Source: Gemmataceae bacterium (GTDB taxonomy: Bacteria > Planctomycetota > Planctomycetia > Gemmatales > Gemmataceae). From it: DNA of 33,978 nucleotides. Location: NCBI GenBank assembly GCA_019694755.1, contig JAIBBI010000045.1, positions 1-33,978 on the forward strand, written 5' to 3'. A program made the translations under genes and the position numbers. Below the pieces are notes generated by a model that was not told where the DNA came from, made no database searches, and saw only the letters and a list, made by a program, of their open reading frames with translations. Position 1 is the first letter of the stretch. The number at the start of each line of letters is the position of its first letter. Shown piece after piece: positions 157-32,556 of this stretch.

Positions 157-230
157 GTGTGGGTACAGGAATCGAACCTGTAACTCCCGGTTCCTAAGAC
201 CGGTGCTCTTACCGTTTGAGCTAACCCAGG
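157..230 (-). tRNA. tRNA-like gene, anticodon UAG, defective acceptor end
   Basis: On the minus strand the sequence folds into a near-complete class I tRNA. The D stem is GCTC/GAGC with G18G19 in the loop, the anticodon arm is CCGGT-CTTAGGA-ACCGG, the variable loop has five bases, and the T arm is ACAGG-TTCGATT-CCTGT. With U33 in place the anticodon is UAG followed by G37, which would read the Leu codon CUA. Two things are wrong for a normal tRNA-Leu. The variable arm is short, whereas bacterial tRNA-Leu is class II with a long arm. In the acceptor stem only pairs 3-70 to 7-66 form; 1-72 (C-A) and 2-71 (C-C) do not. A CCA triplet (155-157) directly follows base 72, with no separate discriminator base. 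It is either a degenerate tRNA or an unusual minor isoacceptor. Confidence 0.6.
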
Positions 231-16411: not shown

Positions 16412-17584
16412 TTGGCGACGCAAACCGTTCTCATCGACAAGCTGCTGACGACCGTCATCCAGCTCAAGGCCAGCGACCTGCACATCTCGTGCGGTCAGCC
16501 GCCGGTCATCCGCCTGCACGGTCGCATGCGGAAACTCGACGCCAAGATCCTGGATTCCGACGACACCACCGGCCTGATGAAGGCCATCACCCCGGACCGC
16601 TGCCAGCAGGAACTTCAGGAACGTGGCGGCTCGGACTTCGCCATCGAGTTTACCGACGGCGTGCGGTTTCGTGTGGCCGTCTACAAACAGAAAGGGACGA
16701 TCGGGATGGTGCTCCGGCGCATTCCGAGTACGTTCCTCACGTTCGAGCAGATCGGTATGCCGGACGCGATGCGGGCTCTCATCGTCCAGCCCCGCGGGCT
16801 GATCCTTGTCACCGGGCCGACCGGCTCGGGGAAGACGACCAGCCTCGCGTCAATGATCAACTTCCTCAATCACAACTACGACCGCCACGTCATCACGCTG
16901 GAAGACCCGATCGAGTACTACCACAAGCACAACAAGTGCACGGTGAATCAGCGCGAGATCGGCGTCGACGTCCCCGACTTCAAAGAGGGCATCCGCCGGG
17001 CCCTCCGTATGGACCCCGATATCATCCTCGTCGGCGAAATGCGTGACCTCGCGACAATCCACGCGGCCATCGAGGCGGCCGAAACCGGCCACTTGGTGTT
17101 CGGCACCCTGCACACCTCAGGCGCTGCCAGCACGATCAACCGTATTATCGACGTGTTCCCGAAGGACCAGCAGGATCAGGTGCGGACGCAGCTCTCGACC
17201 GCGCTGATCGGCGTGCTTTCGCAAGGCATTCTGCCGCGGAAGCCGGACGGCCTCGTCGCTGCGTTCGAGATGATGGTGGTCACGCCTGCCATCCGCAACC
17301 TGGTCCGTGAGAACAAGACCTACCGAATCGACTCCTCGATTCAGACCGGGCGCAAGCACGGCATGTTCCTTCTTGACGAAAGCCTCTTCAAGTTGTGGAA
17401 GGACGGGCTCTGCGACAAGGAAGAAGTGCTTCTGAAATCGAGCAAGCCGGCCGAGCTGGCCGCCCGCATCGCCGCCGCCGAGAAGGGGATCTTCGAGGAC
17501 GACGACGAGGAATATGACGACGAGGACTACGAAGAGGTCGACGACGACGAAGAGGACGAGGCGCCCCGCGGCAAACGGAAGTGA
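16412..17584 (+). CDS. pilT: Pilus retraction ATPase (PilT)
   Basis: A 390-residue ATPase of the PilT class, which powers pilus disassembly. Features are ASDLHISCGQPPVIRLHG (N-terminal PAS-like domain), Walker A GPTGSGKTT at 135-143, ITLEDPIEYYH, Walker B IILVGEMRD, FGTLHTSGAASTINRIIDVF, and the PilT-specific AIRNLVRENKTYRIDSSIQT. There is no tetracysteine, as expected. The last 35 residues are an unusual Asp/Glu-rich tail (EDDDEEYDDEDYEEVDDDEE) ending APRGKRK, beyond normal PilT. Translation appears to start at TTG 16412: GAGGAT lies suitably upstream, and the nearby ATG at 16404 is out of frame. PilT in the same cluster as pseudopilins argues for a dynamic, retractable fibre. Confidence 0.94.
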   Translation: MATQTVLIDKLLTTVIQLKASDLHISCGQPPVIRLHGRMRKLDAKILDSDDTTGLMKAITPDRCQQELQERGGSDFAIEFTDGVRFRVAVYKQKGTIGMVLRRIPSTFLTFEQIGMPDAMRALIVQPRGLILVTGPTGSGKTTSLASMINFLNHNYDRHVITLEDPIEYYHKHNKCTVNQREIGVDVPDFKEGIRRALRMDPDIILVGEMRDLATIHAAIEAAETGHLVFGTLHTSGAASTINRIIDVFPKDQQDQVRTQLSTALIGVLSQGILPRKPDGLVAAFEMMVVTPAIRNLVRENKTYRIDSSIQTGRKHGMFLLDESLFKLWKDGLCDKEEVLLKSSKPAELAARIAAAEKGIFEDDDEEYDDEDYEEVDDDEEDEAPRGKRK

Positions 17585-17696: not shown

Positions 17697-19559
17697 ATGC
17701 CGCCGACCCCTAACAAGCCAGACCCGAAGAAGACCGTTCCTACGGCCAAAGGTGTTGCGCCGGGCAAGACGCCCGCCAAGCCCGCGCCGAAGAAGCCGGT
17801 CGAGAAGCCGAATGCCGCGCCGAAGGGTGGCTGGTCGGGCAGTGAGGCCGGTACCCGCAAGTTCGGCCAGGTGCTCGTTGACCTCGGGTTCCTCGACGAG
17901 GCTCAGCTCGACGAGCTGATGTTCGAGGTCCGCTCGTCCGAAATGCCCCTCGAGCAGCTTGCCCTCGACCGCGGACTGATCAACTCCGAGCAGATCCTGC
18001 AGGCCAAGGCCGAGCAGCACGGCTTGAAGGTCGTGAACCTCGATGAGGCCAAGCCGACCCCCGAAGCGCTCAAGCTCGTTCCGGAAAACATGGCCCAGGT
18101 CTACAAGGTGCTGCCGCTCAGCTTCGAGGGCGACACGCTGACCGTGGTCATGAACGACCCGGGAAACCTCGCCGCCCTCGACGACCTGCGGAATTTCCTC
18201 GGCGTCAAGTCGGTCACGGCCGTGCTCGCCCCGCAGTACCAGATCGACGAGCACACCAAGGAGGCTTACACCGGCAAGCCGCAGGAGAGCATTGTCGACC
18301 TGCTCGCCTCGCTCGAAGACACCGGCGGAAAGGGCCGGCAGCGCGAGACCTCGATCGACCTCGGCGACCTGATGGAAATCGCCGATTCCGCCCCCGTGCG
18401 CAAGCTGATCAACATGATCCTGCTCACGGCCATCCGCGACCGGGCCTCCGACATTCACTTCGAGCCGTTCGAAGAGGAGTACAAGGTCCGGGCCCGCTGC
18501 GACGGCGTGCTCATGGAGCTGATCCCGCCACCGCGTCACCTGGAGCGGGCCATCAGCAGCCGCATCAAGGTCATGTCGAATCTCGACATCGCCGAGCGGC
18601 GCATGCCCCAGGACGGCCGGATCGAGCTGAACGTCGGCGGCAACCAGATCGACCTCCGCGTCAGCATCCTGCCCACCATGTTCGGCGAGAGCGTAGTTAT
18701 CCGCGTGCTCGACCGCACGGTCGTCAACCTCGACCTCGACCGGCTCGGCATGGACCCGGCGGTTCTCGTCCCGTTCCGCGAGCTGATCCACAAGCCCAAC
18801 GGCATCGTGCTCGTCACCGGGCCGACCGGAGCAGGCAAGACTACCACGCTCTATTCCGCCCTCAATGAGCTGAACCAGATCACCGAGAAGATCATCACCA
18901 CCGAAGACCCGGTGGAGTACGAAATCGACGGCATCGTACAGTGCCAGATCCACCATGAGATCGACCTGACTTTCGCGAGCGCATTGCGGTCGATCCTCCG
19001 GCAGGACCCGGACATCATCCTCGTCGGCGAAATCCGCGACCTCGAGACCGCCCAGATCGCCGTACAGGCGTCGCTGACCGGGCACATGGTGTTCAGCACG
19101 CTGCACACCAACGACGCGTCGAGCACCATCACCCGCATGCGGGACATGGGCGTCGAGCCGTTCCTCATCACCGCGACGGTCGAGGGTATCATCGCCCAGC
19201 GGCTGGTCCGCAAGATCTGCAACAACTGCCGGCAGGAATACGATCCGGGCCCGGAACAGCTCATGGAGCTGAACATCACGGCCAAGGATCTCGCGGGTCG
19301 GAAGTTCTTCTACGGTGCGGGCTGCGACAAGTGCAATAACCTCGGTTTCAAAGGCCGGTGCGGCCTTTACGAAATGATCGTGATGGACGACGACCTCCGC
19401 GACATGATCTCGTCCGGCGCGTCGACCGACCTGCTCCGCAAGGCATCGCGCGACAAGGGCTTCGCGACCCTCCGCGACGCGGGCCTGGCGGCTTTGTACG
19501 GCGGAGTCACCACGCTCGACGAGGTGGTGCGGGAGACGGTGCTGGAAGACGAAGCGTGA
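17697..19559 (+). CDS. pilB: Type IV pilus/type II secretion assembly ATPase (PilB/GspE), copy 2
   Basis: A 620-residue assembly ATPase. Residues 1-50 are a Pro/Lys/Ala-rich, probably disordered extension. An MshEN-like domain follows (FGQVLVDLGFLDEAQLDELM, about 55-200). The core has SDIHFEPFEEEY, RMPQDGRIEL, Walker A GPTGAGKTT at 375-383, ITTEDPVEYEIDG, DIILVGEIRDLET and FSTLHTNDASS, plus the tetracysteine CNNC and CDKC. It is complete and more uniformly GC-rich than copy 1. The ATG at 17697 has only a distant AAGGA upstream. The gene lies directly before the platform gene pilC, the usual pilB-pilC neighbour order, so this copy is the more likely partner of PilC here. Whether the two ATPases act together or on separate fibres is unknown. 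Confidence 0.95.
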   Translation: MPPTPNKPDPKKTVPTAKGVAPGKTPAKPAPKKPVEKPNAAPKGGWSGSEAGTRKFGQVLVDLGFLDEAQLDELMFEVRSSEMPLEQLALDRGLINSEQILQAKAEQHGLKVVNLDEAKPTPEALKLVPENMAQVYKVLPLSFEGDTLTVVMNDPGNLAALDDLRNFLGVKSVTAVLAPQYQIDEHTKEAYTGKPQESIVDLLASLEDTGGKGRQRETSIDLGDLMEIADSAPVRKLINMILLTAIRDRASDIHFEPFEEEYKVRARCDGVLMELIPPPRHLERAISSRIKVMSNLDIAERRMPQDGRIELNVGGNQIDLRVSILPTMFGESVVIRVLDRTVVNLDLDRLGMDPAVLVPFRELIHKPNGIVLVTGPTGAGKTTTLYSALNELNQITEKIITTEDPVEYEIDGIVQCQIHHEIDLTFASALRSILRQDPDIILVGEIRDLETAQIAVQASLTGHMVFSTLHTNDASSTITRMRDMGVEPFLITATVEGIIAQRLVRKICNNCRQEYDPGPEQLMELNITAKDLAGRKFFYGAGCDKCNNLGFKGRCGLYEMIVMDDDLRDMISSGASTDLLRKASRDKGFATLRDAGLAALYGGVTTLDEVVRETVLEDEA

Positions 19560-19712: not shown

Positions 19713-20960
19713 GTGCCAACCTACAAATTCGAAGCGCTCGACACGGCCGGGTCCGAGGTCAAGGACCAGATCGACGCGCTCAACGAGGAAGAGGCGCAAC
19801 AGAAAATCCGCCAGATGGGCTACTTCGTGACCAAGCTCACGGCGGCGGCCCAGGCCAAGAAGGGCGGCAAGAAGGGTGGGCCCAAGGGCAAGAAGAAGAA
19901 GACGCGCACGATCTCCATCGGCGGCGTCTCCTCGAAGCAACTCTGTACCTTCACCCGGCAGTTTTCCACGCTCCAGGACGCCGGCCTGCCCGTGCTCCGC
20001 AGCCTGAAGATTCTCGAACACCAGATGAAGCCGGGCATCCTCAAGAACGCCCTCATCGACGTCGTCGAAGACGTCGAGTCCGGAACCGCGCTCTCCGATT
20101 CGCTGGGCAAGCACCCGAAGTGTTTCGACCGCCTCTACGTCAACATGGTCCGGGCCGGCGAGGCGGGCGGTGCACTCGAAGTCATCCTCCAGCGCCTCGC
20201 CGACTTCAAGGAAAAGTCGCAGTCGCTCAAGCGCAAGATCATCGGCGCGATGGTGTACCCCGTCGTGGTCATCCTCGTGGCCGTCAGCATTCTCGGCTTC
20301 ATCATGGTGGTGGTCATCCCGAAGTTCAAGAAGATCTTCGAGGACTTCAAACTGCCGCTGCCCGTGCCGACCGTCATCCTCATCAGCACCTCGATGTGGT
20401 TCGCCCGGTACTGGTGGGTCTTACCCCTGTTCCCGCTCGGGATGATCTTGCTGAACAAGTTGATCCGGCTGAGCAGGGCGGGGGCGTACGCGCTCGACAA
20501 GATGAAGCTCTGGGTGCCGCTCACCGGCAAGATCCTGGAGAAATCGATCGTCGCCCGGACAATGCGGACGCTGGGCACGCTGGTCGCGTCGGGCGTACCG
20601 ATTCTCGAATCGCTGGCCATCGTCCGCGAGACGTCCGACAACCTGGTGTTCGAGCGGATGTATCAGCGGGTTTACGAGTCGATCCGCGAGGGCGAGACGA
20701 TCGCCGAGCCGATGCGGCAATCCCGGCTGGTCGACGACATGGTCGTGAACATGATCGAGGTCGGCGAAGAGACCGGCGACCTCGACAGCATGCTCTACAA
20801 GATCAGCGATTTCTACGACGAGGAAGTCGATACCGCGGTGAAGAGCCTCATCAGTACGCTCGAGCCGCTCATGATCGTGATCCTCGGTCTCATCATCGGC
20901 GGCATCGTGATCTCACTGTTCCTGCCGCTCGTGAGTCTGATCGAAGGATTGAGCAAGTAA
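19713..20960 (+). CDS. pilC: Inner-membrane platform protein (PilC/GspF)
   Basis: A 415-residue polytopic protein that couples the assembly ATPase to pilin polymerisation. The N-terminus MPTYKFEALDTAGSEVKDQIDALN is the family start, and two T2SSF domains follow (TFTRQFSTLQDAGLPVLRSL and TMRTLGTLVASGVPILESLAI). Membrane segments are at about 176-205, 231-250 and 383-412. The conserved MVRAGEAGGALEVIL and MIEVGEETGDLDSML motifs are both present. A Lys/Gly-rich insert (KKGGKKGGPKGKKKKT, about 50-65) separates the first helix from the body, and several relatives lack it. The start is a GTG at 19713 with GGGAGG eight to nine bases upstream. Confidence 0.95.
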   Translation: MPTYKFEALDTAGSEVKDQIDALNEEEAQQKIRQMGYFVTKLTAAAQAKKGGKKGGPKGKKKKTRTISIGGVSSKQLCTFTRQFSTLQDAGLPVLRSLKILEHQMKPGILKNALIDVVEDVESGTALSDSLGKHPKCFDRLYVNMVRAGEAGGALEVILQRLADFKEKSQSLKRKIIGAMVYPVVVILVAVSILGFIMVVVIPKFKKIFEDFKLPLPVPTVILISTSMWFARYWWVLPLFPLGMILLNKLIRLSRAGAYALDKMKLWVPLTGKILEKSIVARTMRTLGTLVASGVPILESLAIVRETSDNLVFERMYQRVYESIREGETIAEPMRQSRLVDDMVVNMIEVGEETGDLDSMLYKISDFYDEEVDTAVKSLISTLEPLMIVILGLIIGGIVISLFLPLVSLIEGLSK

Positions 20961-21022: not shown

Positions 21023-21922
21023 ATGGTCCGATCATCCGTTCATCGCCGGGCCGGCTTCACGCTGGTGGAAGCCCTGGTCGTCGTGTCGATCATTGTCATC
21101 CTCGCGAGCCTGACCACCGCGGCGGTCGTGCGGGCCCTGCAGTCGGCCGAAGACGCCCGCGTCGTCGCCGAGATCAAGCAACTCGAAAACGCAATCGCGG
21201 CGTTCAAGAGTGAATTCGGCGTCGACTATGTGCCGGGCCACGTCAAACTTTTCAACAACTTGAACAACTACAACGCCGCGAACCTCAAGACGACCGATCC
21301 GGTGGCCTTCGAGACCAAGCAGTTTCTCGCCACTATGTTTCCCCGGTTGCCCTTCGCCGGCACGATTGCCTGGAGCGGTTCTGGTTCCGGCACCTATGAG
21401 CTGTTTGGGCCGGAGTGCCTCGTGTTCTTCCTCGGCGGCCGCAACGGTCTCGACGGCTTCTCCAAGAATCAGACCGACCCTTGGAACGGAGCAGGCAGCC
21501 GCAACAAGCCTTTCTTCGAGTTCGACCAGAAGCGGCTCAAGCTGATGGCTTGGAATACGAGCTTCCCCGCCTACCTCGACCCGTACAACAGCGGCGCGGC
21601 CGAAGACCAGCCGTACTACTACTTCACATCGAAGAAGGGCGGTGACTACTCCGCGCTCGACACGTTCGTTCCGTCTCCGGGCGCATACGGCACGATCAGG
21701 ATCGCGCCGTTCCGCGACACCTCCAACCGGTTCATCAACCCGAACGGCTTCCAGATTCTCTCGGCCGGGCGCGACAAGCGGATCGGCAACTTCACGCTCA
21801 CGACAGCGGAGCCGTTCGTGAAGTGGAGCAATGGCACGTTTACCTCGGCCGCATCCCCGGGCAACGAGCCGCAGGACAACCTGGCGAACTTCCACCCGGT
21901 CAAGCTCGGTATCCCGCAGTGA
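21023..21922 (+). CDS. GspG/PilA-like major (pseudo)pilin, copy 1
   Basis: A 299-residue prepilin. The class III signal RRAG|FTLVEALVVVSIIVILASL has Gly at -1, Phe at +1 and Glu at +5 of the mature protein, followed by the long hydrophobic helix and an amphipathic continuation (RALQSAEDARVVAEIKQLENAIAAFKSEFG) as in GspG. The globular part ends with GFQILSAGRDKRIGN, matching the GspG-style C-terminal F-x-I-x-SAG-x-D signature. It is about twice the size of classical GspG, with an inserted Tyr/Asn-rich region. The ATG at 21023 has GAGG upstream; a much longer frame in the same phase would run antiparallel to nothing useful and overlap pilC, so it is rejected. Gene order (first pseudopilin after F) also fits G. 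Confidence 0.88.
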   Translation: MVRSSVHRRAGFTLVEALVVVSIIVILASLTTAAVVRALQSAEDARVVAEIKQLENAIAAFKSEFGVDYVPGHVKLFNNLNNYNAANLKTTDPVAFETKQFLATMFPRLPFAGTIAWSGSGSGTYELFGPECLVFFLGGRNGLDGFSKNQTDPWNGAGSRNKPFFEFDQKRLKLMAWNTSFPAYLDPYNSGAAEDQPYYYFTSKKGGDYSALDTFVPSPGAYGTIRIAPFRDTSNRFINPNGFQILSAGRDKRIGNFTLTTAEPFVKWSNGTFTSAASPGNEPQDNLANFHPVKLGIPQ

Positions 21923-21930
21923 GGACGATC

Positions 21931-22887
21931 ATGCCACGCATACGACTGCGCCGGTCGGGCTTCACGGCCATCGAGCTCCTGATCGTCGTGACCATTCTGG
22001 GCATCATCGCCGCGCTGACCGCCGGCGCGGTTGTCCGGGTGATGGCGTCGGCGGAAAAGAGCGCGACCGAAACGACTCTGACCAAGCTCGCCAGCGTGCT
22101 CGACATCCACTGGAAGGCCGTCATTGACTCCGCGAAGAAGGAGTATGACGGCCTGCCATCGGGCATCAAGGCGAATCTGCTCGCCCTGGCAGACAACCAG
22201 GCCAACACGCCGGCGACACCGAAGCCGCACCCGCGCCGCGACGACCGTGCTCGGCTGCTGTACGTGAAGTTCCGGCTGAAGCAGGAGTTTCCGACATCAT
22301 TCGCGGCGGCCGCGGACCCCGCCCCGAACTACCTGCCCGCTCAGTCGGTACCGCCGATCGCAGGACTGTACACGGGCAAGCCGGCGTACATCAAGGCGAT
22401 CAACGGCAAGACGATCGGCCTCGGCAAGGAGTCAGCTGCGTTGCTGGTCCTCGCCCTGCAGCAATCGCGGGCTGGCGTGGCCTCGACGCCGATCGAGCAA
22501 CTCGTCGGCGGGTCATTTCTCCGCCAGGAAAACGGTCTGAGCTATCTCGTCGACAGTTGGGGCTCGCCGCTTCAACTGTTCATCTTCCCGACCGCAGCCA
22601 CCGCGGGCACAACCGACCTGAATGCGGGCAACGACCCGCAGGACCCCGAGGGGCTGCTCAAAACCGTCGCCGTCAGCAAGTGGCAGGCATTGCCGATCTT
22701 CGCAACGCTGCTGCACCCGCAGATCGATTCCCGCCGGCTGGTTCCGGTGATCGTGTCCGCCGGGCCCGACCGGCTACTCGGCGGCTCGGGATCGCAAAGC
22801 AACCCCACGATGAATCTGACCAGCCCGGATGCCGACGACAACATCTACAGCTATCGCCTGCGCCAGTCCGGCGCTCGGGGGGATTGA
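21931..22887 (+). CDS. GspG-like (pseudo)pilin, copy 2
   Basis: A 318-residue prepilin starting eight bases after the previous stop, with GAGGA as ribosome site. The processing site is RRSG|FTAIELLIVVTILGIIAAL with Glu at +5. The helix continues as AVVRVMASAEKSATETTLTKLASVLDIHW. The globular portion carries YLVDSWGSPLQLF (the D-x-WG-x-P element common in GspG-like pilins) and ends with LVPVIVSAGPDRLLGG and a DADDNIYSY tail. It is related in design to copy 1 but not a simple duplicate, being clearly different between the helix and the C-terminus. Two G-like subunits could form a mixed fibre, or one may be a minor subunit. Confidence 0.86.
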   Translation: MPRIRLRRSGFTAIELLIVVTILGIIAALTAGAVVRVMASAEKSATETTLTKLASVLDIHWKAVIDSAKKEYDGLPSGIKANLLALADNQANTPATPKPHPRRDDRARLLYVKFRLKQEFPTSFAAAADPAPNYLPAQSVPPIAGLYTGKPAYIKAINGKTIGLGKESAALLVLALQQSRAGVASTPIEQLVGGSFLRQENGLSYLVDSWGSPLQLFIFPTAATAGTTDLNAGNDPQDPEGLLKTVAVSKWQALPIFATLLHPQIDSRRLVPVIVSAGPDRLLGGSGSQSNPTMNLTSPDADDNIYSYRLRQSGARGD

Positions 22888-22890
22888 GCC

Positions 22891-24030
22891 ATGAATCGAC
22901 ATTCGCGGCAAGGTCTCACACTCATTGAGTTGCTCGTGGTCATGGCGATCATGGGCATCCTCGGCGGCATTGTCGCCGTCGTCGCGCCGAAGTTCGCACA
23001 GTCGTCGCGGGTCGCCGAAGGGTCGCGCCAGCTGACCAACTGGCTTTCTCTGGCCCGCCAGCGGGCCCAGCGCGACAAGGCGCCGCGCGGTATCCGCTTC
23101 GCCGGCACGCTGCCAACCAGCGTTTCCCGGCAGCAGGAGCTTTACAGCTCTTTCGTTTACGTCGAACAACCGGAAGACCTGGCAGTCGATGTCCGCGAAA
23201 TCGATCTGGTGCCGCAGAACCAACTCGCCAACCGGCGCGTTGCTTTCCGCACCCAGGCGTTCAGCAATCTGCAGTTCGGGATCAGCGACCCGGCACAAAA
23301 GTACACGGCGACGCAGAAGACCAAGTTCCAGACGTATCGCAACGCCCTCGATCCGGCCAACACGGCCAACGTGAACAGTTGGCTCTATCTGTTGTGGTTC
23401 GCCAACCGGAATCTGGCCGTCGCACCCGGATCACCGGCCGCGAGCCAGGTCATCCGCGACGGCGACATCGTGCAGTTCGGCAACGCCCGATACACGGTCG
23501 TGTACGAACCGATTGTCGACCCCGCGGGCACTGGCAGCTTCGTGATCCTGAATCGGCCGCGCGACGAATTCCGGTATCAGGTCCCGGAAATGACTGCCCC
23601 ATTGCCGCCGGCCCGGATCATCCGGTCGCCCCGGCCCATCGCCGGCGAAGCCGAGTTGACCCTGCCGCGTGACGTGGCGGTGGACATTCTCTGGACCAAC
23701 AAGTCGGCCGGCGTGAACTACGCTCGAACATTACCCGCTCCGGACGTCAACGACCCGCCTGGGTCGCAGTTCTTCGACGTGATGTTCGCTCCCTCGGGCG
23801 AGGTGGTCGGCGGGCTGGGTGGTTACGGCCGGCTGGTCTTCTGGCTCCGCGACACGTCCCTGAAAGATTCGGGCGGCGGCACGCTGCCCCAGGGCGAGAA
23901 CCGCCTGATCGTCGTCCATTGCCGGACCGGCCAGATTACGTCGCACCCGGTCGCCATCGACCCGTCGGGCAATCCCAGCGACGCCTACCAGTTCATCCGC
24001 GACGGCAAGTCGTCGGCGAATGAGGATTGA
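22891..24030 (+). CDS. GspH/FimT-like minor pseudopilin
   Basis: A 379-residue prepilin. The signal RQG|LTLIELLVVMAIMGILGGIVAVV has Glu at +5. Next comes SRQLTNWLSLARQRAQRDKAPRGIRF, the region where GspH/FimT proteins carry their L-x-x-AR-x-x-A...G-x-x-x-x pattern. A large beta-rich domain follows with PGSQFFDVMFAPSGEVVGG, recalling the FimT F-x-P-x-G-x-x element, and a final GRLVFWLRD...RLIVVHCRTGQITSHPV. It is larger than classical GspH (about 170 residues). The ATG follows the previous stop by three bases, so it is co-translated with its neighbours. Its third place in the pseudopilin series matches H. Confidence 0.84.
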   Translation: MNRHSRQGLTLIELLVVMAIMGILGGIVAVVAPKFAQSSRVAEGSRQLTNWLSLARQRAQRDKAPRGIRFAGTLPTSVSRQQELYSSFVYVEQPEDLAVDVREIDLVPQNQLANRRVAFRTQAFSNLQFGISDPAQKYTATQKTKFQTYRNALDPANTANVNSWLYLLWFANRNLAVAPGSPAASQVIRDGDIVQFGNARYTVVYEPIVDPAGTGSFVILNRPRDEFRYQVPEMTAPLPPARIIRSPRPIAGEAELTLPRDVAVDILWTNKSAGVNYARTLPAPDVNDPPGSQFFDVMFAPSGEVVGGLGGYGRLVFWLRDTSLKDSGGGTLPQGENRLIVVHCRTGQITSHPVAIDPSGNPSDAYQFIRDGKSSANED

Positions 24031-24038
24031 GGCACGCC

Positions 24039-25124
24039 ATGAAACGCCACGGCACCACACTCATCGAAGTCCTCGCCGCGATCTTCATCCTCGCGCTCGG
24101 ACTCGTAGCGCTCATGACGCTCTTCCCGCTCGGGGCAGCCCAGATGGCCCGCTCGATTCAGGACGAGCGCGCCGCCCAGATTGCGGGTAACGCCGCCAGT
24201 TACTTCCGCTGGTACTGGCGCTCGCAGTGCGAGCCGGACATGATGAACCGGACCGGCGACAAGATGCTGTACGAATCAGTCAACCCGTCGTGGTACGGCG
24301 CGGCCCTCGACGATCCGAATGCCGGCGTACCCAACGCTTACGTCAAGACAGCCACCAACATCTTCCCGGCACCGGCCAATACGGCGGCGAACATCTCCGC
24401 GCGGTCGCGTTCGTCGCTCCCCAGCTATCCCGTCTTTATCGACCCTGTCGGGTGGATGGCGGCCGGCGCGTCGGTGGACCAATACTGGGTCGGAGAGAAA
24501 TCACCGACCGTGCCCCCGGCCGGCTACATCCACGCCCCGATTCCGCGCCGGACTATCGTCGGCATGACCACGCTGCCCCAGGTGCTGCGGATGTTTTCGA
24601 TGCTCGACGACATGGGCTTCGACACCAGCGGCGTCAGCAATGTGAATGAACGGAGCAGCCAATACAGCTACGCCTGGCTGCTGCGCCGCAACAACAGCAG
24701 CCTCCGCCAGGAAGTGAACCTGACGGTCGTCGTGTACTTCCGACGGTCGCTGGCGACGCTCGCTCAGGAGGCGAACTACGTGGCTACTGTGAACGCCCCG
24801 GCTACGACCGACGGCACGACCAACACCGTGACCCTGCACTACACCGGCGAACGCCCGTCCATCCGCCGGGGTTCGTGGATCCTGGACGCATCGATGGGCA
24901 ACATCGCCACCGGCGTAGTTCCCCAGGGCTTCTACTACCGCGTGACCGAAGTGGGCGAGCCGCAGGTGGTCGGCAGCGAAAACACGATCGACTTGCAGGT
25001 GGAGACGCCGCTGAAGTTCGGCCCCTCGGGCGCGAAGTCGCGGGTGTTCGTCGTACAGGATCGCGTGCTGGAAGTGTTCGACAAGGGCACGATCGATATG
25101 ACCTCGCCGCCGCGGGTGAACTGA
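24039..25124 (+). CDS. GspI/PilV-like minor pseudopilin
   Basis: A 361-residue prepilin with a short leader MKRHG|TTLIEVLAAIFILALGLVALMTLFPLGAAQMARS. Glu at +5 and the LALGLVALM-type helix followed by small residues are typical of GspI/PilV. The rest (NAASYFRWYW, SQYSYAWLLRRNNSSLRQEVNLTVVVYFRRS) is beta-rich and ends FVVQDRVLEVFDKGTIDMTSPPRVN. I chose the ATG at 24039 with GAGG seven bases upstream over the TTG at 24027, because the leader then fits the family. It is eight bases from the preceding stop. Confidence 0.84.
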   Translation: MKRHGTTLIEVLAAIFILALGLVALMTLFPLGAAQMARSIQDERAAQIAGNAASYFRWYWRSQCEPDMMNRTGDKMLYESVNPSWYGAALDDPNAGVPNAYVKTATNIFPAPANTAANISARSRSSLPSYPVFIDPVGWMAAGASVDQYWVGEKSPTVPPAGYIHAPIPRRTIVGMTTLPQVLRMFSMLDDMGFDTSGVSNVNERSSQYSYAWLLRRNNSSLRQEVNLTVVVYFRRSLATLAQEANYVATVNAPATTDGTTNTVTLHYTGERPSIRRGSWILDASMGNIATGVVPQGFYYRVTEVGEPQVVGSENTIDLQVETPLKFGPSGAKSRVFVVQDRVLEVFDKGTIDMTSPPRVN

Positions 25125-25137
25125 ACAGGGTGATGCC

Positions 25138-26547
25138 ATGACACGACAGAACCGACGCCGCGGTCTGACCCTGGTCGAGATGCTGGTCGCGACCGCGCTG
25201 ATCATTTTCGTAATGACGATCCTGGCGAGCGTGTTCACGTCGGGCATCGGCGCGCTGCGCTCGCTCCGCGGTGTAGGGCACCTGCAGGACAATCTGCGGA
25301 CGGCCACGAACATCCTTCGGCGGGATCTCGCCGCTCCGCACTTCGGGCGCGACGTTTCGCCGACGGCGGGGCCGTACCTCAGCCAGCAGCGGCTCGACCT
25401 CGCCGACTGGATTCCACCTTCGGAAGGCTTCTTCCGCGTCGTTCAGGGCTCGATCTCCACGGCCGAGGGGTTCGACGGCGACGGTATCCCGTCTTACCGG
25501 GCGACGAATCACGCGCTGCACTTCAGCGTCCGGATGGAGCCGAATGCGATCGAGGGCGGCGGCCGGGACCGCATGTTCACAACCCGCGACATCCCGTCTT
25601 CGATGATGGCGGGGATGATGATGCCGGGCTCGACCACCGACTGGCGGCTCGCGCCGACGCAGATGAGTTACATGATGAACGACGACAATCCGCGCTACGC
25701 CAGCCGGTGGGCCGAAGTGGCCTACTTCCTGGCGGCGAGCGGTCAGTCGGCCGGGGATACGCCGCTCTACACGCTGTACCGCCGGCGACGCGTACTGCTC
25801 GACGGGCGCACGCCCAACGACGATTTCTCCGCGATCACCGTGAACCCGCTGCAACTGCCCCAACAGACCGCAGACCTGCGGACCGACGCCAGTCTGTTCT
25901 CCAACCCGACCACCGGCACGGCGTTTTACAACACCGCGGCCGACGCTGCCAATCCGATGCGGCGCTACGGCGTAACGGCCACGGCCAAGGCGATCACCGC
26001 CCAGCAGACGGGCACGATGACCGGCCTCGCCGCCGCCGACCAGATCGCGCTCGCGGGCCTCGCGACCTATACCCCGATCAACCAGACCAATGCCAGCGAC
26101 GCCGCGACGACCAACACTCTGCGGACCAATGCAGGCGGTGACGACATCCTGATGGAGAACGTGATCTCCTTCGAGGTGCGGGTGAACTGGGATGTGCCAA
26201 ACGTCACGTCAACCACGCTCGCAACCGGGGCAGCCAATCCAACCTATGCCCCGACCCTGGCGGCCGCGCTCGTCCGGTCGCCGCGGAACACGCTGGCCAG
26301 TGACTACCCGTTCGACATTCTGCCGGAATCGCCGGCGGCGTTCGGCAATCCGGTCTACGCCAGCGCGGCCGGGCCGTTCGTGTTTGATACGTGGAGCTCG
26401 CGCAATTCCTATCAGGCGATCGGCACCGGTCAAAGCCCCATGAACATTCCCCTCCGCATTCGCGTCAAGGCGATTCAGATCCGCCTGCGGGTGTGGGACA
26501 TCAAAACACAGCAGGCCCGCCAGGTGACCCTGGTGCAGGACATGTAA
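25138..26547 (+). CDS. GspJ/PilW-like minor pseudopilin
   Basis: A 469-residue prepilin. The processing site is RRRG|LTLVEMLVATALIIFVMTILASVFTSG with Glu at +5. Then comes GALRSLRGVGHLQDNLRTATNILRRDLAAPHF, the GspJ/PilW feature where a helix leads into L-R-x-DL. The domain contains EVAYFLAASGQSAGDTPLYTLYRRRRVLL (W-style Y-x-V-x-x-x-x-L-x-R segment) and ENVISFEVRVNW, and ends RIRVKAIQIRLRVWDIKTQQARQVTLVQDM, the usual GspJ/PilW terminal strand. AGGGTGAT precedes the ATG. It completes the minor pseudopilin set before the giant K-like gene, 145 bases downstream. Confidence 0.85.
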   Translation: MTRQNRRRGLTLVEMLVATALIIFVMTILASVFTSGIGALRSLRGVGHLQDNLRTATNILRRDLAAPHFGRDVSPTAGPYLSQQRLDLADWIPPSEGFFRVVQGSISTAEGFDGDGIPSYRATNHALHFSVRMEPNAIEGGGRDRMFTTRDIPSSMMAGMMMPGSTTDWRLAPTQMSYMMNDDNPRYASRWAEVAYFLAASGQSAGDTPLYTLYRRRRVLLDGRTPNDDFSAITVNPLQLPQQTADLRTDASLFSNPTTGTAFYNTAADAANPMRRYGVTATAKAITAQQTGTMTGLAAADQIALAGLATYTPINQTNASDAATTNTLRTNAGGDDILMENVISFEVRVNWDVPNVTSTTLATGAANPTYAPTLAAALVRSPRNTLASDYPFDILPESPAAFGNPVYASAAGPFVFDTWSSRNSYQAIGTGQSPMNIPLRIRVKAIQIRLRVWDIKTQQARQVTLVQDM

Positions 26548-26692: not shown

Positions 26693-29600
26693 ATGTTACT
26701 TCGCAGCCGCGAGCCACGCCGGGGGATCATCCTCGTCGTCGTGGTCTCCATGCTCGCCCTGTTTGCCGTCATCGGCCTGGGGTACGTCATCTACTCCGAG
26801 TCCGCGGCCACGTCGAGCCGCATCAGTCGCGAGACGCAGGTCGTCATCGACGACCGCGCGGTCATTGAACCCGAGCTGGCGCTCAACCAGGCCCTCGGCA
26901 CGCTGATCTACGACAAGCCCGACGACGCCACCGGCGTGTACTGCGCCCTGCGCGGCCACAGCCTCGCGCGGAGCATGTACGGCTGGAACCCGCCGGCCAA
27001 CACCCTCAATGTGAACAGCAACCAGGTGCCCTACAACGGCACGGGCCGGCTGAAGTACACCGACCTGTTCTCCAATCTGCCTTCCGAGCAGATCATCAAC
27101 TTCACGACCTTCCCGGGCGATCAGGTGATCCGCAGCCCGGAAAAGTACCCGATCGATCCGACCAACGCCTCGAGCTACGCCCGGCCCGGCTCGGACCCGA
27201 CGCGCTACTTCGGCGGGTACAACGTGCCGTACACGTACCCCGACCTCAACAACGTGTTCCTTGCCGCGGTCCGCGCGACGGACGGCCAGGTGCTTATCCC
27301 GTCGTTCCACCGCCCGTATCTGTTTCGCCAAGGCGGTAACGCCAATCAGCCGGTCGATTACAGTTTCCTCACGAACTCGACACACCCGGATTGGTATCGC
27401 CCCAGCGGCCGGCTCAAGCTGCTGCGCCCCCGGCCGGTCGATCAGCTCACCGCCGCCCAGGTCCAGGCGGCCGGCGTCCCGTACCCGATCCAGGAAAACA
27501 TCACTCCGGGTCAGATCAATCAACTGCGAAACACTATCGTCGCGCTCCAGGCTGCGGGTAAGCTGCTCCAGTATCCGAATGACCCGGGCGGCGACGTGAA
27601 GAACCTGCCCGGCAGCCCGGGCGGCAACGACAGCGTGTGGGTCGATATCGGCCTGCCCGTCCGCACCACCCGGTCCGGCAAGAAGTTCAAGCCTATGGTC
27701 GCCTTTCTCATCCGCGACCTCGACGGGCTCATCAACATCAATGCCGCGGGCAACATCTCCGGCGTGAACCAGTCGCATGTCAGCAATCAGGGCCTGGGCC
27801 GGCACGAGATCAGCATTGAAAAGCTGCTCGGCACCGAGGCGAAAAACCTGTTCCAGGGCAACGCTGCCGTGAAGCAGCCGGGGCGTTACACTGCGTCGGC
27901 GACGGCGAGCTATCCCCTGACGACACCGGCCAACCTGCTGCCGTCGTTCCTCCAACCGCCGACCACGCCGAACGGCGTGAACATCACGCCGCAGGCCCCG
28001 CGCCCGGCCAACGAATTGACCTTCGGGCCGACCTACCTGCCGGTCGATGTGGACGCGGGCCGGTACGACCCCAGCGTCGGCACCGGGCTTTTCCGCAGCT
28101 TCGCGGCCCAGGCGTACACGTTTTCGAATCAGGTACCGCTCACGCTCAGCAGCTATCCGGACCTTTACACCGTTCCGATGCGCACGCCGCCGATCCCCTC
28201 GACGGGCTACGACGGCGACGTGGCCGGCGAACGGTTGAACCACCCCCTGCTGTTCAACACGATGCGGCCGACGGGCAACTCCCGACTGCTCGACGGGAAG
28301 GAAATGCACCGGCTGCAGGGGCGCTATAGCAGCCCGCTCGATTGGCAGGACAGCATTCTGAGCAAGCTGATCCCGGTGACGGCCCAGTCGGCCGTGGCCC
28401 GGCACGCGATCACGCTGTTCAGCGCGGACTTGGCCCGGCCGGGGCTCACGCCGCAAACCTTCCGGCTCGACCCGACCAACCCGCCGAACCAGTACACGAT
28501 CGATACGTCGAACCCGAACCAGACCATGCCGTGGGCGGCGCAGGGCGAGCAATTCCCGCCGTTGAGTGTCGTCCCGGCCGCGGGCACGCCGCCGCAGACG
28601 ATGGACAGCGACTTTCTCGGCAACCCGTTCTACTACTTCGCGCCGGTGGCCACGACCGCGAGCAGCCCGGCGGGTGTGAAACTGCCGGTTACTTCGCCGC
28701 CGTCCACGAGCCCGATTCTCCTGCACGACGGCCGGAGCTTCATGGCCGGCGTCCGCGAGCGGATCGACCTCAATCGGCCGCTCAAGCAGTACCCGCCGGT
28801 CGTCGCCAATGGCTCGGGCAAGGGGCAGTTCTTCAACACGGCCGACCCGAACTTCGCGACGCAGTTCACCGCGGCGGAGCAGGATCGCCAGGCGTTCTGC
28901 AAAGATATCTTCGACGTGTTGGTGAAGGCGACGGGCGTACCTGCGCCGTCGGCGACGCTCGCGCCCGGCACGCCGGACTTCCTGACCCTGAAGTATCTCG
29001 CACAACTTGCCGTGAACATCGTCGACGATATTGACGAGGACGACGTGATGACCGTGTTCCGCTGGACCACGGAGTCAAGTGTCCCGCCGACCGAGGCGTT
29101 CGTGTACGGCGTCGAGATGCCGAAGGTGGTCATCAACGAAGCGTACGTCGAACAGACAAACGGGCCGCAGGGCGACCCGATGTACGTGAAGCCGGCAACG
29201 ATGTCAATGCCGCCGATGGCGCTCAAATATCAGGTCAACACGTTTGTCGAATTGCACAACACGATGACGCCGCCGTTCCTGAACGAGGAGAACGGCAGCC
29301 AGGCGACGCTGAACTACAACGCCTTCGTCGCCCGCCACTCGCAATGGCTGTACAATGCCCCTCAGACATCTCCCTCGTATTCCGCTTACAGGCTCTACGT
29401 CGCGAAGGCGACCACGGTGCCAGAAGATTCGGCTCTCGTTGGCGATCCTCCGGCCACTGCAAAAGGGCTAGATGATCAAGCAGTCAAATACGTACTGTTC
29501 GCCGACGACCCGATGAGCGTCAAGGACCACATCAAGCCGGTGGATACCTCAGTGGTGTCCGGTCCTTCGGGGCCGTGCAGTTATCGCTGCAAGACCGGCG

Positions 29601-31804
29601 TGAAGAACGGCGGGTTCTTTGTGATTGGTCCGGACCAAATCAGCAATCTTGTAGCTCCCGGTTGGACGTTTTCAACGCCAGGCTCGACTGTTGAAAGCGC
29701 GAATATGCGGTTTGACGTACCGGCGGGGCAGCCAGTCCTCCCTCCGATAATAGTCTTGCAACGATTGGCGAATCCGTACATTCCGGAACAGCCGAATCCT
29801 GCTGGACCGGCTTATAACCCATATGTCGCAGTTGATGTCATGGATCTCAGGTCACAAACAGTTCCGCAGGCTTTGGGAGTTCCCACTCCGCCTCCCGGCG
29901 GAGCGAACAACAACGCGACGTTCATGCGGCGCCAGCCTTTCAGTGGCGAAAAGTCACTCATTCGCCAGAGCACCGCGCCAGATCCCAGCGGGAGCGGGCC
30001 TAAGAACACGTTCTTCTCCCACAATGCCAGCACAGGATCGACGGCTCCGACGCAATTGCCTGAGCCAGGTACCGGACTCGAGCGTTTTGATTGGTACATC
30101 CACCACGACCGCAAGCTCACGAGCCCGGCCGAGCTGATCCATGTTGCCGGCGTGACGCCGTGGTTCGTCACCCGTCGGTTCATGTACGAAGACGTGACAA
30201 ATCCTGGACGCATTGTCCGCCAGGGTCATACGGCCGCCTGGACGGACGAGCGCGAGATCATCGACCCGATGTCAGGTAAGTTCGGGAAAAAGATACCGCT
30301 GCAAGACGTCTCCCCGACGCCTACGACGCCGGGCAATCCGCCCACACTGAGCGCACGGCTTTACCGCACGCTCGAAATGTTCCGCACCGGCGACCGCACC
30401 ATCGAGATGGGCTTCGGCGGGCGGGATGTGGGCAAGGTCAACATCAACACGATCTGGGACAAGGTGGTCTTCGACGCCGTGTGCGACGGCGTGGCCAAGA
30501 GTGTCACGGTCGGCAGCACGCCAGTTTACCTGCCCGATGCCGCCTACGGCTTCACGCAAATGGACGTCGACAGTGCGTGGATCGCCCTGACAACGAATGT
30601 CAATCTGACGGCGCGGACGCCGAACCTGAACACGCTTTACACCGTGTCCGGTTTGCCGATGGGCACCCCGCCGGGCATCGGGCTGGCGACCAGCCCGTCG
30701 GCATTCCCGGGGCAGCCGTACACGCAGATCGGCGAACAGGATATGCCGTTCTGGGGCATGGGCGCGCCGCACGCGCTCCAGAGTCCCGCGAACGCGCAGT
30801 ACCCGATAATGCCCACCGGGGCGACCGCGCCGGCCTGGCAGTTCGTCCAGAATCAGGGCATTGAGGCGACGCTGTTCCGCAGCTTGGTGCCGCGCGTGCC
30901 CAACGACCCGCGGTTCCAGCGGACCAAGGTCTTCGATGCCGAGAGTCAGTATCTCGTGACACCTGCCGGCTCCAGCTCGCCGCTGGTGCCGGGTGTGCCG
31001 ACCTCGGTGAATCCCGAGCCGGCGGTCCGGCATCCGTTCCTCGAGAAGTCGATGATCACAAAGATCTTCGAGCACTTCACCACGCGGTCGAACGTGTTCG
31101 CAGTGTATATGACCGTCGGCTACTTCGAAGTGATCAACGACAGCTCCAAGCCTGAGCTGTTGGGCGACGAGATCGGCGTGATCCGCGATTCGACAGGGGC
31201 CGTGGCGGAAAACAAGACGACCCGCCACCGCATGTTCGCGATCATCGACCGGACCAACCTCGCGTTCCAGTCCGGCAGCTACGACTACACCAACTCCAAC
31301 AACGCCACCATCGTCGGCGACGACCAGATGAAGCAGGGCGAATCGCCGTTCTACTACACCAGCCAGGTCGAGCTCTGGCCGAGCGGTCCGTACGCGGGCG
31401 CGTGGACCGTGACTTTGCCCGCGACCTCGACGAGCGGCAACCTGCCCGGCGGGTTCGTGCAATCGGCGACCGGCACCTGCAACGGCGTCGGCTGGCGCCT
31501 CCAGGCCGTATCGAATGCCACGACGTCGGCATCGCTTCTGTACGTCAACACAGGCTCTTCTGAGCAGCGGCTTGCGGTGCGGGCGATCCGCCCGGCCGGC
31601 GCGGGCTTCGTCCATGTGCTGCTCGGCAACCCGCCGAAGCAGTCGCCGCTCAACCCCTCAAGCTGGCCCAGCCTCGGGGCCGCACCCTTGGCCCCGATCC
31701 GGATTACCAACGGCATCGCGGGCAACCCCGGCCCCCAGCCGGACTTCGACCACAAACTGCCTAACTACCGCGGCGTAGTCCTCTACTCCGTGATCCTCGA
31801 CTGA
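26693..31804 (+). CDS. Giant GspK/PilX-like minor pseudopilin (1703 residues)
   Basis: A single uninterrupted 1703-residue frame. The N-terminus EPRRG|IILVVVVSMLALFAVIGLGYVIYSESAATSS is prepilin-like, but residue +5 is Val, not Glu. GspK is the pseudopilin that normally lacks Glu5. K-type Asn/Asp-rich motifs occur three times: FLIRDLDGLININAAGNISG (about 336-355), LKYLAQLAVNIVDDIDEDD (about 765-783) and GRDVGKVNINTIWDKVVF (about 1242-1259). Typical GspK has about 300-350 residues, so this is about five times larger. GspK caps the I-J-K tip complex, and here the tip would carry a very large outward domain. No catalytic motif or named domain is recognised between the landmarks. GGAGG seven bases before the ATG supports the start. 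Bases about 29345-30110 have markedly lower GC at third codon positions than the rest. Confidence 0.85.
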   Translation: MLLRSREPRRGIILVVVVSMLALFAVIGLGYVIYSESAATSSRISRETQVVIDDRAVIEPELALNQALGTLIYDKPDDATGVYCALRGHSLARSMYGWNPPANTLNVNSNQVPYNGTGRLKYTDLFSNLPSEQIINFTTFPGDQVIRSPEKYPIDPTNASSYARPGSDPTRYFGGYNVPYTYPDLNNVFLAAVRATDGQVLIPSFHRPYLFRQGGNANQPVDYSFLTNSTHPDWYRPSGRLKLLRPRPVDQLTAAQVQAAGVPYPIQENITPGQINQLRNTIVALQAAGKLLQYPNDPGGDVKNLPGSPGGNDSVWVDIGLPVRTTRSGKKFKPMVAFLIRDLDGLININAAGNISGVNQSHVSNQGLGRHEISIEKLLGTEAKNLFQGNAAVKQPGRYTASATASYPLTTPANLLPSFLQPPTTPNGVNITPQAPRPANELTFGPTYLPVDVDAGRYDPSVGTGLFRSFAAQAYTFSNQVPLTLSSYPDLYTVPMRTPPIPSTGYDGDVAGERLNHPLLFNTMRPTGNSRLLDGKEMHRLQGRYSSPLDWQDSILSKLIPVTAQSAVARHAITLFSADLARPGLTPQTFRLDPTNPPNQYTIDTSNPNQTMPWAAQGEQFPPLSVVPAAGTPPQTMDSDFLGNPFYYFAPVATTASSPAGVKLPVTSPPSTSPILLHDGRSFMAGVRERIDLNRPLKQYPPVVANGSGKGQFFNTADPNFATQFTAAEQDRQAFCKDIFDVLVKATGVPAPSATLAPGTPDFLTLKYLAQLAVNIVDDIDEDDVMTVFRWTTESSVPPTEAFVYGVEMPKVVINEAYVEQTNGPQGDPMYVKPATMSMPPMALKYQVNTFVELHNTMTPPFLNEENGSQATLNYNAFVARHSQWLYNAPQTSPSYSAYRLYVAKATTVPEDSALVGDPPATAKGLDDQAVKYVLFADDPMSVKDHIKPVDTSVVSGPSGPCSYRCKTGVKNGGFFVIGPDQISNLVAPGWTFSTPGSTVESANMRFDVPAGQPVLPPIIVLQRLANPYIPEQPNPAGPAYNPYVAVDVMDLRSQTVPQALGVPTPPPGGANNNATFMRRQPFSGEKSLIRQSTAPDPSGSGPKNTFFSHNASTGSTAPTQLPEPGTGLERFDWYIHHDRKLTSPAELIHVAGVTPWFVTRRFMYEDVTNPGRIVRQGHTAAWTDEREIIDPMSGKFGKKIPLQDVSPTPTTPGNPPTLSARLYRTLEMFRTGDRTIEMGFGGRDVGKVNINTIWDKVVFDAVCDGVAKSVTVGSTPVYLPDAAYGFTQMDVDSAWIALTTNVNLTARTPNLNTLYTVSGLPMGTPPGIGLATSPSAFPGQPYTQIGEQDMPFWGMGAPHALQSPANAQYPIMPTGATAPAWQFVQNQGIEATLFRSLVPRVPNDPRFQRTKVFDAESQYLVTPAGSSSPLVPGVPTSVNPEPAVRHPFLEKSMITKIFEHFTTRSNVFAVYMTVGYFEVINDSSKPELLGDEIGVIRDSTGAVAENKTTRHRMFAIIDRTNLAFQSGSYDYTNSNNATIVGDDQMKQGESPFYYTSQVELWPSGPYAGAWTVTLPATSTSGNLPGGFVQSATGTCNGVGWRLQAVSNATTSASLLYVNTGSSEQRLAVRAIRPAGAGFVHVLLGNPPKQSPLNPSSWPSLGAAPLAPIRITNGIAGNPGPQPDFDHKLPNYRGVVLYSVILD

Positions 31805-31872: not shown

Positions 31873-31893
31873 TCGTGCTTTCGTCTTTTCGTG
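31873..31893 (-). repeat. Hairpin partner arm upstream of the GxxExxY gene
   Basis: This 21-base segment is complementary to 31826-31846 with one mismatch, and 26 bases lie between the arms. The structure ends about 30 bases before the ATG at 31923. Confidence 0.65.
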
Positions 31894-31922
31894 GTGAGTC
31901 TTGCCTTCGGGGAGACGACGCG

Positions 31923-32291
31923 ATGGGCCATCAGTTCGAGGAATTGTCGAGCCTGATCCTCGCGGCTGCTGTCGAGGTCCACAAGTCGTTGGGGCCGGGA
32001 TTTCTCGAGCCCATCTATCATCGAGCCATGGAGGTCGCCCTAGAACATCGAGGAGTACCATTTCTGACGGAAAAAAAGGTTCACATCTTCTTCGAGGGAG
32101 TTGAAGTCGGAATCCACCGACTGGACCTGATTATCGATTCCCGGATCGTCGTGGAACTCAAAGCGATCAAGGCGTTCGAAGACATCCATTTCGCTCAGGT
32201 CCGGTCCTACCTGAAGGCCACCGGCCTGCACACGGGCTTGCTGCTCAATTTCAACGCCCCGACTCTTGCCATCAAGCGAATCGTGCTGTGA
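31923..32291 (+). CDS. GxxExxY protein (PD-(D/E)XK nuclease-fold)
   Basis: A 122-residue protein. The defining motif is G26-F-L-E29-P-I-Y32, within VHKSLGPGFLEPIYHRAM. The PD-(D/E)XK-like core follows: Asp68 in HRLDLIID, then Glu79 and Lys81 in VVELKAI, and Gln92 in HFAQVRSYL. All putative catalytic residues are kept and the length is normal for the family, so the gene looks intact. The family's biological role is not established; the fold suggests nucleic acid cleavage or binding. GGGGAG lies nine to ten bases upstream of the chosen ATG; an earlier ATG at 31875 would place the upstream hairpin inside the coding region. It is the only gene in the repeat-bounded cassette, downstream of the giant GspK gene and upstream of tRNA-Cys. 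Confidence 0.88.
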   Translation: MGHQFEELSSLILAAAVEVHKSLGPGFLEPIYHRAMEVALEHRGVPFLTEKKVHIFFEGVEVGIHRLDLIIDSRIVVELKAIKAFEDIHFAQVRSYLKATGLHTGLLLNFNAPTLAIKRIVL

Positions 32292-32484: not shown

Positions 32485-32556
32485 AGGCCTCGGGCGGATT
32501 CGAACCGCCGTATGACGGTTTTGCAAACCGTTGCCTTACCACTTGGCGACGAGGCC
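32485..32556 (-). tRNA. tRNA-Cys (GCA)
   Basis: The minus strand gives a full cloverleaf. The acceptor stem GGCCTCG/CGAGGCC is perfect, the D loop has AAGTGGTAA, the anticodon arm is ACGGT-TTGCAAA-ACCGT with anticodon GCA, and the T arm is GGCGG-TTCGAAT-CCGCC. The discriminator base is U73, the hallmark of tRNA-Cys. CCA is not encoded (CTT follows), so it must be added after transcription. Confidence 0.97.

Follow-up and report, generated by a model that had tools for sequence, protein, structure and literature searches.

GspK-type proteins set the starting point and the tip of pilus-like fibres and are normally small. Members of the GspK/XcpX family (PF03934, NF037980; PDB 3CI0, 5VTM, 6UTU) are characterised by a pilin helix without Glu5, by an alpha-domain that splits the pilin sheet, by an acidic and a NINT motif and by a position after the I and J subunits. 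All these characters, with the two motifs in the same order, recur in the protein considered here, a product of 1703 residues (hereafter giant K) encoded in a 33,978-nucleotide stretch of DNA from a Gemmataceae bacterium (the window). However, compared with GspK/XcpX, giant K is about five times larger, carries inserts of ~240-390 residues in three loops, and is encoded in a PilT-containing operon of a genome that also harbours an ordinary T2SS GspK. We know of no GspK as large as this one. Further traits of the GspK superfamily are calcium binding and a ternary complex with I and J at the tip.

A second point of reference is provided by the modular pilins, such as S. sanguinis PilB, CofB and ComZ, in which, as by homology in giant K, an effector module is grafted onto or inserted into the pilin (PMC8179133). 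GspK itself has been named modular, and the most extreme multi-domain modular pilin cited comprises 860 residues (PMC8179133). In comparison, the giant K family ranges from ~1,200 to ~3,200 residues and is conserved throughout its class, and thus widens the known range of modular pilins. By neighbourhood, the closest relatives that bear a name are the proteins of the 'Verru_Chthon cassette', which are uncharacterised; the literature searched here held no dedicated paper on this cassette or on planctomycete GspK. The picture that emerges is of a whole class keeping one GspK fold, split by more than 1000 residues of inserts, in a fixed pilus operon, and giant K is a testable candidate for the contact of planctomycete fibres with surfaces or food.

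The giant K gene and its prepilin-like start

The gene occupies positions 26693..31804 of the + strand, on which all the features of the gene and its operon described below also lie. It has homologues, forms a complete frame with an ATG start and no internal stop, and is present in a single copy in its own genome. The product begins with MLLRSREPRRG^IILVVVVSMLALFAVIGLGYVIYSES, a prepilin-like N-terminus (RRG^IILVVV); the leader of 11 residues, with predicted cleavage after Gly11 at a conserved site, and the alpha-1 helix without Glu5 together cover 26693..26842, the helix being matched to that of GspK by profile comparison (hhalign probability 88%, E 3e-6). Among the 73 relatives with letters at the cleavage site, drawn from a 76-member alignment, 68 have G and 5 have A at position -1, 71 have Arg at position -3, and all 73 have V, I, L or M, and none Glu, at mature position +5. 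The GspK-superfamily trait of a class III leader followed by a hydrophobic alpha-1 devoid of Glu5 is therefore present in giant K and in each of these relatives, and Glu5 is retained in the upstream H-, I- and J-type genes. The first-pass annotation of this DNA had described a prepilin-like N-terminus lacking Glu5, which these counts bear out; its estimate of a five-fold size holds against a GspK of 300-340 residues, but against the 552-residue GspK of the same genome the excess is only three-fold.

Homology to GspK and the arrangement of the inserts

Taken alone, the giant K protein gave no match in single-sequence searches of Pfam, NCBIfam and PDB sequences, and it is not hit by the curated PF03934 and NF037980 models, recognition by which helps detection and is not itself a biological trait. 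The relationship emerges on comparing the family profile (hhalign) with 24 PF03934-bearing planctomycete GspK-type frames, an automatic selection in which a few rows may be spurious frames. Besides the alpha-1 helix, the strongest match was a 'GkVNINTa..vL.aL' element (residues 1217-1265 of the window protein; E 7e-4), with weaker ones to 'vDyiD.Dd', 'p..t..ELL.v' and 'I.D.dg.lNlN', and the helix, IxDxxgxlNlN, DxxDxD and NINT matches follow one another in identical order in the giant K family and in GspK. When the helix was left out, the top single match scored 60.6 and the top collinear chain 95.5, as compared with maxima of 22.4 and 37.8, respectively, in 200 column shuffles and of 16.6 in 60 reversed controls; none of the 260 controls reached the observed score, which argues for homology to GspK outside the helix. 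The giants are further tied to GspK by two bridge proteins, L131 (873 aa, from Phycisphaerae) and L132 (847 aa), which align for the greater part of their length with the giant K family (E 5.5e-15) and also match columns 171-312 of GspK (E 6.9e-14); L131 also scores above the T2SSK (PF03934) cut-off. Among the families that giant K members match most frequently is PF03934, with a best E of 0.013. As a lone marker of GspK this model proved unreliable, the second match in the genome under study being a ComEA-type HhH frame.

The fold was modelled with AF2 on the homologue L078 (residues 24-1223, 36% identical to giant K, 47 sequences), with a pLDDT of 82.7 and a pTM of 0.86. When this model was compared by VIA-align, the top four of 991 chains were GspK/XcpX (Z 10.3-10.5), the next row being a DUF4876 protein at Z 7.5; 3ci0_K superposed with Z 10.4 over 240 of its 280 residues (86%) at 4.4 A, distributed over model residues 40-1169. 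Since the superposition is spread over the model, it is indicative of one whole GspK fold extending across ~1130 residues, and the interruption of the pilin fold by an alpha-domain is likewise present in the prediction. Foldseek placed GspK chains at ranks 2, 3 and 5 with E-values of ~0.6-1.8, a weakness to be expected if the fold is scattered over 1200 residues, although weak these values still are. Profile comparison, the K position of the gene after I- and J-type genes and, by way of the homologue, the modelled fold thus place giant K with GspK, in agreement with the identity and the structural likeness proposed in the first pass.

In giant K, three large inserts break up a single GspK fold; a K fold is not repeated. 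Its successive motifs are spaced by 336, 433, 369, 103 and 213 residues, as against ~98, 45, 25, 44 and 58 columns in the GspK profile, an excess from which we calculate that the inserts add ~240, 390 and 340 residues in three loops, together with smaller additions. Insert A (~275 residues, 26858..27682), delimited by the first of these spacings, lies between alpha-1 and the first pilin-sheet motif, 'v.I.D..g.lNlN' (FLIRDLDGLININAAG, residues 336-353, 27698..27751), which is conserved and has a weak collinear hhalign match. Insert B (~360 residues, 27770..28852), recognised by motif spacing and conservation, contains a conserved RxDLNRxLxxYP and is partly of low confidence in the homologue model. 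It is followed by two helices, also seen in the model, that end in the GspK-type acidic motif (AQLAVNIVDDIDEDD, ~residues 770-784; 28871..29053), a conserved element with a collinear GspK match, in which Q, N, V, D, D and D are invariant across 31 members. Beyond insert C (~330 residues, 29090..30082) come the 'p..t..ELL.v' motif (residues 1139-1150, RKLTSPAELIHV region; 30107..30142), with a weak hhalign match, and the GspK SAM-like/HhH element (GGRDVGKVNINTIWDKVVFDAV and the following helix; 30365..30652), to which the NINT match at residues 1217-1265 belongs. The C-terminal pilin-sheet strands (FTTRSNVFAVYMTVGYFEV ... RHRMFAIIDRT; 31055..31267) are again conserved, with T, S, V, T, F, D and R nearly invariant among members; canonical GspKs carry the same TTRSNVFAV...R motif close to their end, and in one relative it matches positions 1196-1220 of TIGR02600. 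The remaining C-terminal extension (31268..31801) ends in a conserved GNPGP...VVxYxxxI.

The recurrence of K-type Asn/Asp motifs, noticed at the outset, is real and conserved, at residues 336-353, ~692-695 (DLNR) and 1247-1253 (GKVNINT). The accompanying suggestion that three motif clusters reflect internal repetition of a K-like fold is not supported by segment-by-segment profile self-comparison, in which the segments share only NxN matches of 6-7 residues. Two of the three clusters correspond to consecutive stretches of one K fold, and the one between them, the conserved DLNRxLxxYP, is part of insert B; the clusters are thus read as successive motifs of a single K fold, spread apart by inserts.

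Insert C (VVINEAY...FVELHN) is probably a lamin-tail-like beta domain, that is, a beta sandwich. In the bridge protein L131 a match to LTD (PF00932; E 9e-6, or 9e-7 for the isolated fragment, both below gathering) follows the acidic motif and precedes the SAM-like element, a position that suggests the identity of insert C. One giant K family member likewise matches LTD (E 0.0089), and the window protein yields no LTD match. Modelled alone by AF2, the insert of the window protein (residues 780-1145) is beta-rich (pLDDT 66.9), its best Z being 4.4 without a clear fold match; the absence of a listed match does not make the fold new.

Operon setting, relatives and distribution

The operon has the order PilB-PilT-PilB-PilC-G-G-H-I-J-K, which is kept in relatives. 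It comprises PilB (14488-16206), PilT (16412-17584, above its curated cut-off with 433 vs 319 bits), a second PilB (17697-19559), PilC/GspF (19713-20960, scoring slightly best as GspF), two G-type pilin-like genes (21023-21922 and 21931-22887), an H-type minor pilin (22891..24030; GspH 1.9e-12 and Verru_Chthon D 6.8e-12, both below cut-off), an I/PilV-type minor pilin (24027..25124, probable start the ATG at 24039; TIGR02523 2e-5) and, 145 bp upstream of K, a J-type minor pilin with Glu5 (25138..26547; N_methyl 2.6e-5), relatives of which match Verru_Chthon C and HpsC. Of the 66 loci that have sequence upstream of K, 60 show the end of a pilin-like gene no more than 400 bp away. Some variation is seen, with the PilC homologue broken into three frames while the rest of the operon, downstream of it, is intact (L033/L075) and with two consecutive I-type pilin genes between H and J (L087, L108 and L109); the PilT gene of the window carries an acidic tandem repeat at its C-terminal end (17494-17561).

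The operon contains no secretin, PilMNO or GspC/D/L/M, and instead of having GspC/D/L/M alongside, as in a T2SS locus, giant K sits with PilB, PilT and PilC. The ordinary T2SS of the same genome is found on contig C80 (G000:C80, locus L194), where the 552 aa GspK is accompanied by GspF, a PilM/GspL-like protein and an adjoining secretin; a separate PilM and other secretins occur elsewhere, and the genome has four prepilin-peptidase frames. Since this T2SS has its own GspK, giant K belongs as the K subunit to another system, one that contains PilT.

The Verru_Chthon cassette protein A (TIGR02600, 1296 positions) has a length similar to that of giant K. Two of 31 giant K members match it, in short stretches of the N-terminal and TTRSNVF regions (best E 7.3e-5), and no family member reaches its cut-off (332.3 bits). 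The neighbouring genes also match the cassette, H to D as given above, I to B (0.024) and relatives of J to C (1e-4), largely by way of the pilin N-terminus that they have in common. Direct hhalign comparison of the giant K family with one Verru_Chthon A fragment aligned only the TTRSNVF region, weakly and without a full-length match; by eye, three motifs occur in the same order in the A fragment L193. We do not claim membership, because no curated cut-off is reached, and the comparison suggests that the genes of the 'Verru_Chthon cassette' form tip cassettes of minor pilins (H/I/J/K). The A fragment just mentioned, which exceeds the TIGR02600 cut-off as nothing in any near relative does, is located on a contig of 3,961 bases in another genome (G019:C27; L071, L193), possibly a bin contamination.

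A relative is present in 51 of 59 related genomes. A scan of genome contigs with the single protein found nothing, and one based on an alignment succeeded. In a survey of the class with a profile of the region 1225-1525 of the window protein, a relative was detected in 133 of the 148 sampled genomes (124 of 136 good ones), almost always as one open frame. Zavarzinella formosa and Limnoglobus roseus, which can be cultivated, are among the class members with a relative. Complete-looking frames extend from ~1,229 to 3,172 residues, and the 74 alignment members left after setting aside those flagged as truncated by a contig end have a median of 1571 aa, so that the survey of length advocated in the first pass finds giant size throughout the class. 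The giant K gene belongs to the core genes of the class as a whole and is no isolated oddity. Outside the class, only two weak matches were obtained among ~230 genomes of a phylum-wide sample, and plasmid records gave no match.

Many genomes of the phylum encode proteins of 1000-1770 residues with a GspK/PilX-like start (L196-L215, L228-L232), and on contig L196 two large prepilin-like frames stand in tandem. These other giants (e.g. L208, L212, L228) resemble giant K in their GspK-like N-terminus and large size, but in them the first 360-500 profile columns correspond to a near-complete GspK (hhalign 98-99%), after which comes a C-terminal extension, whereas in giant K the GspK fold is split by inserts. 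Their assignment to the giant K family was rejected, the helix being shared and the architecture different.

Proposed role of the enlarged tip head

Giant K is very likely the minor pilin of K type in a filament that resembles a type IV pilus and is encoded by the same operon, with an enlarged tip head most likely binding a surface or ligand. By analogy with the GspK-I-J tips (PMC6211770), its most likely function would consist in initiating and capping the fibre while displaying this large head. After cleavage at Gly11, the alpha-1 helix would pack with those of the I- and J-type pilins and so start and cap the fibre, a role for a first subunit with which the missing Glu5 is in keeping. The three inserts together with the C-terminal extension would build the head, and it is reasonable to infer that a domain of more than 1000 residues would be exposed on an I-J-K tip; PilT-driven retraction could then follow. 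As nearly every sampled member of this planctomycete class has a copy straight after its other pilus-tip genes, the fibres of these bacteria probably carry a very large, unstudied binding head.

Giant K could, in principle, cap a second T2SS pseudopilus, the head recognising exoproteins or pushing them through a secretin instead of being displayed at the surface, and the gene order E-F-G-H-I-J-K as in T2SS, the slightly best score of PilC as GspF and the GspK fold match would all fit. We consider this unlikely, as the operon encodes a PilT above the curated cut-off and no GspC/D/L/M, and a T2SS with a normal GspK, a secretin and a PilM/GspL-like protein exists separately in the genome. PilT in the operon, along with a ComEA-type HhH protein in the genome (L195), could be taken to indicate a tip protein for DNA uptake (competence). 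The pilin sheet of Thermus ComZ has a large insert thought to bind DNA (PMC8179133), and on this view the inserts of giant K would do the same. No similarity to ComZ was found, however, the operon contains no competence genes, and class-wide conservation does not single out such a role, which appears quite improbable. That the protein is a large membrane-anchored envelope protein with a borrowed pilin helix, neither cleaved nor assembled into a fibre, might be argued from a size beyond that of any GspK known to us and from processing that is only predicted; the retention of the whole GspK fold, of the cleavage site in 73 of 73 relatives and of the K position in the operon makes this very unlikely indeed.

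Macromolecule uptake has been described in these bacteria, and the head might conceivably, if with little likelihood, act throughout the class as a broad receptor for macromolecules on the pilus tip, capturing large ligands such as proteins, polysaccharides or prey surfaces that PilT retraction would pull into the periplasm. If so, it would provide the missing surface-capture step of this uptake.

Just downstream of the giant gene in the window lies a gene for a PDDEXK_3 family protein (31875-32291), and tRNA genes are located at 32485-32556 (-) and 160-228 (-). Further genes encode a calpain-family (Peptidase_C2) protein (1728-2885, -) and a 983-residue FG-GAP repeat protein (6963-9914, -) with an Ig-like domain and, by eye, a dockerin-like C-terminus.
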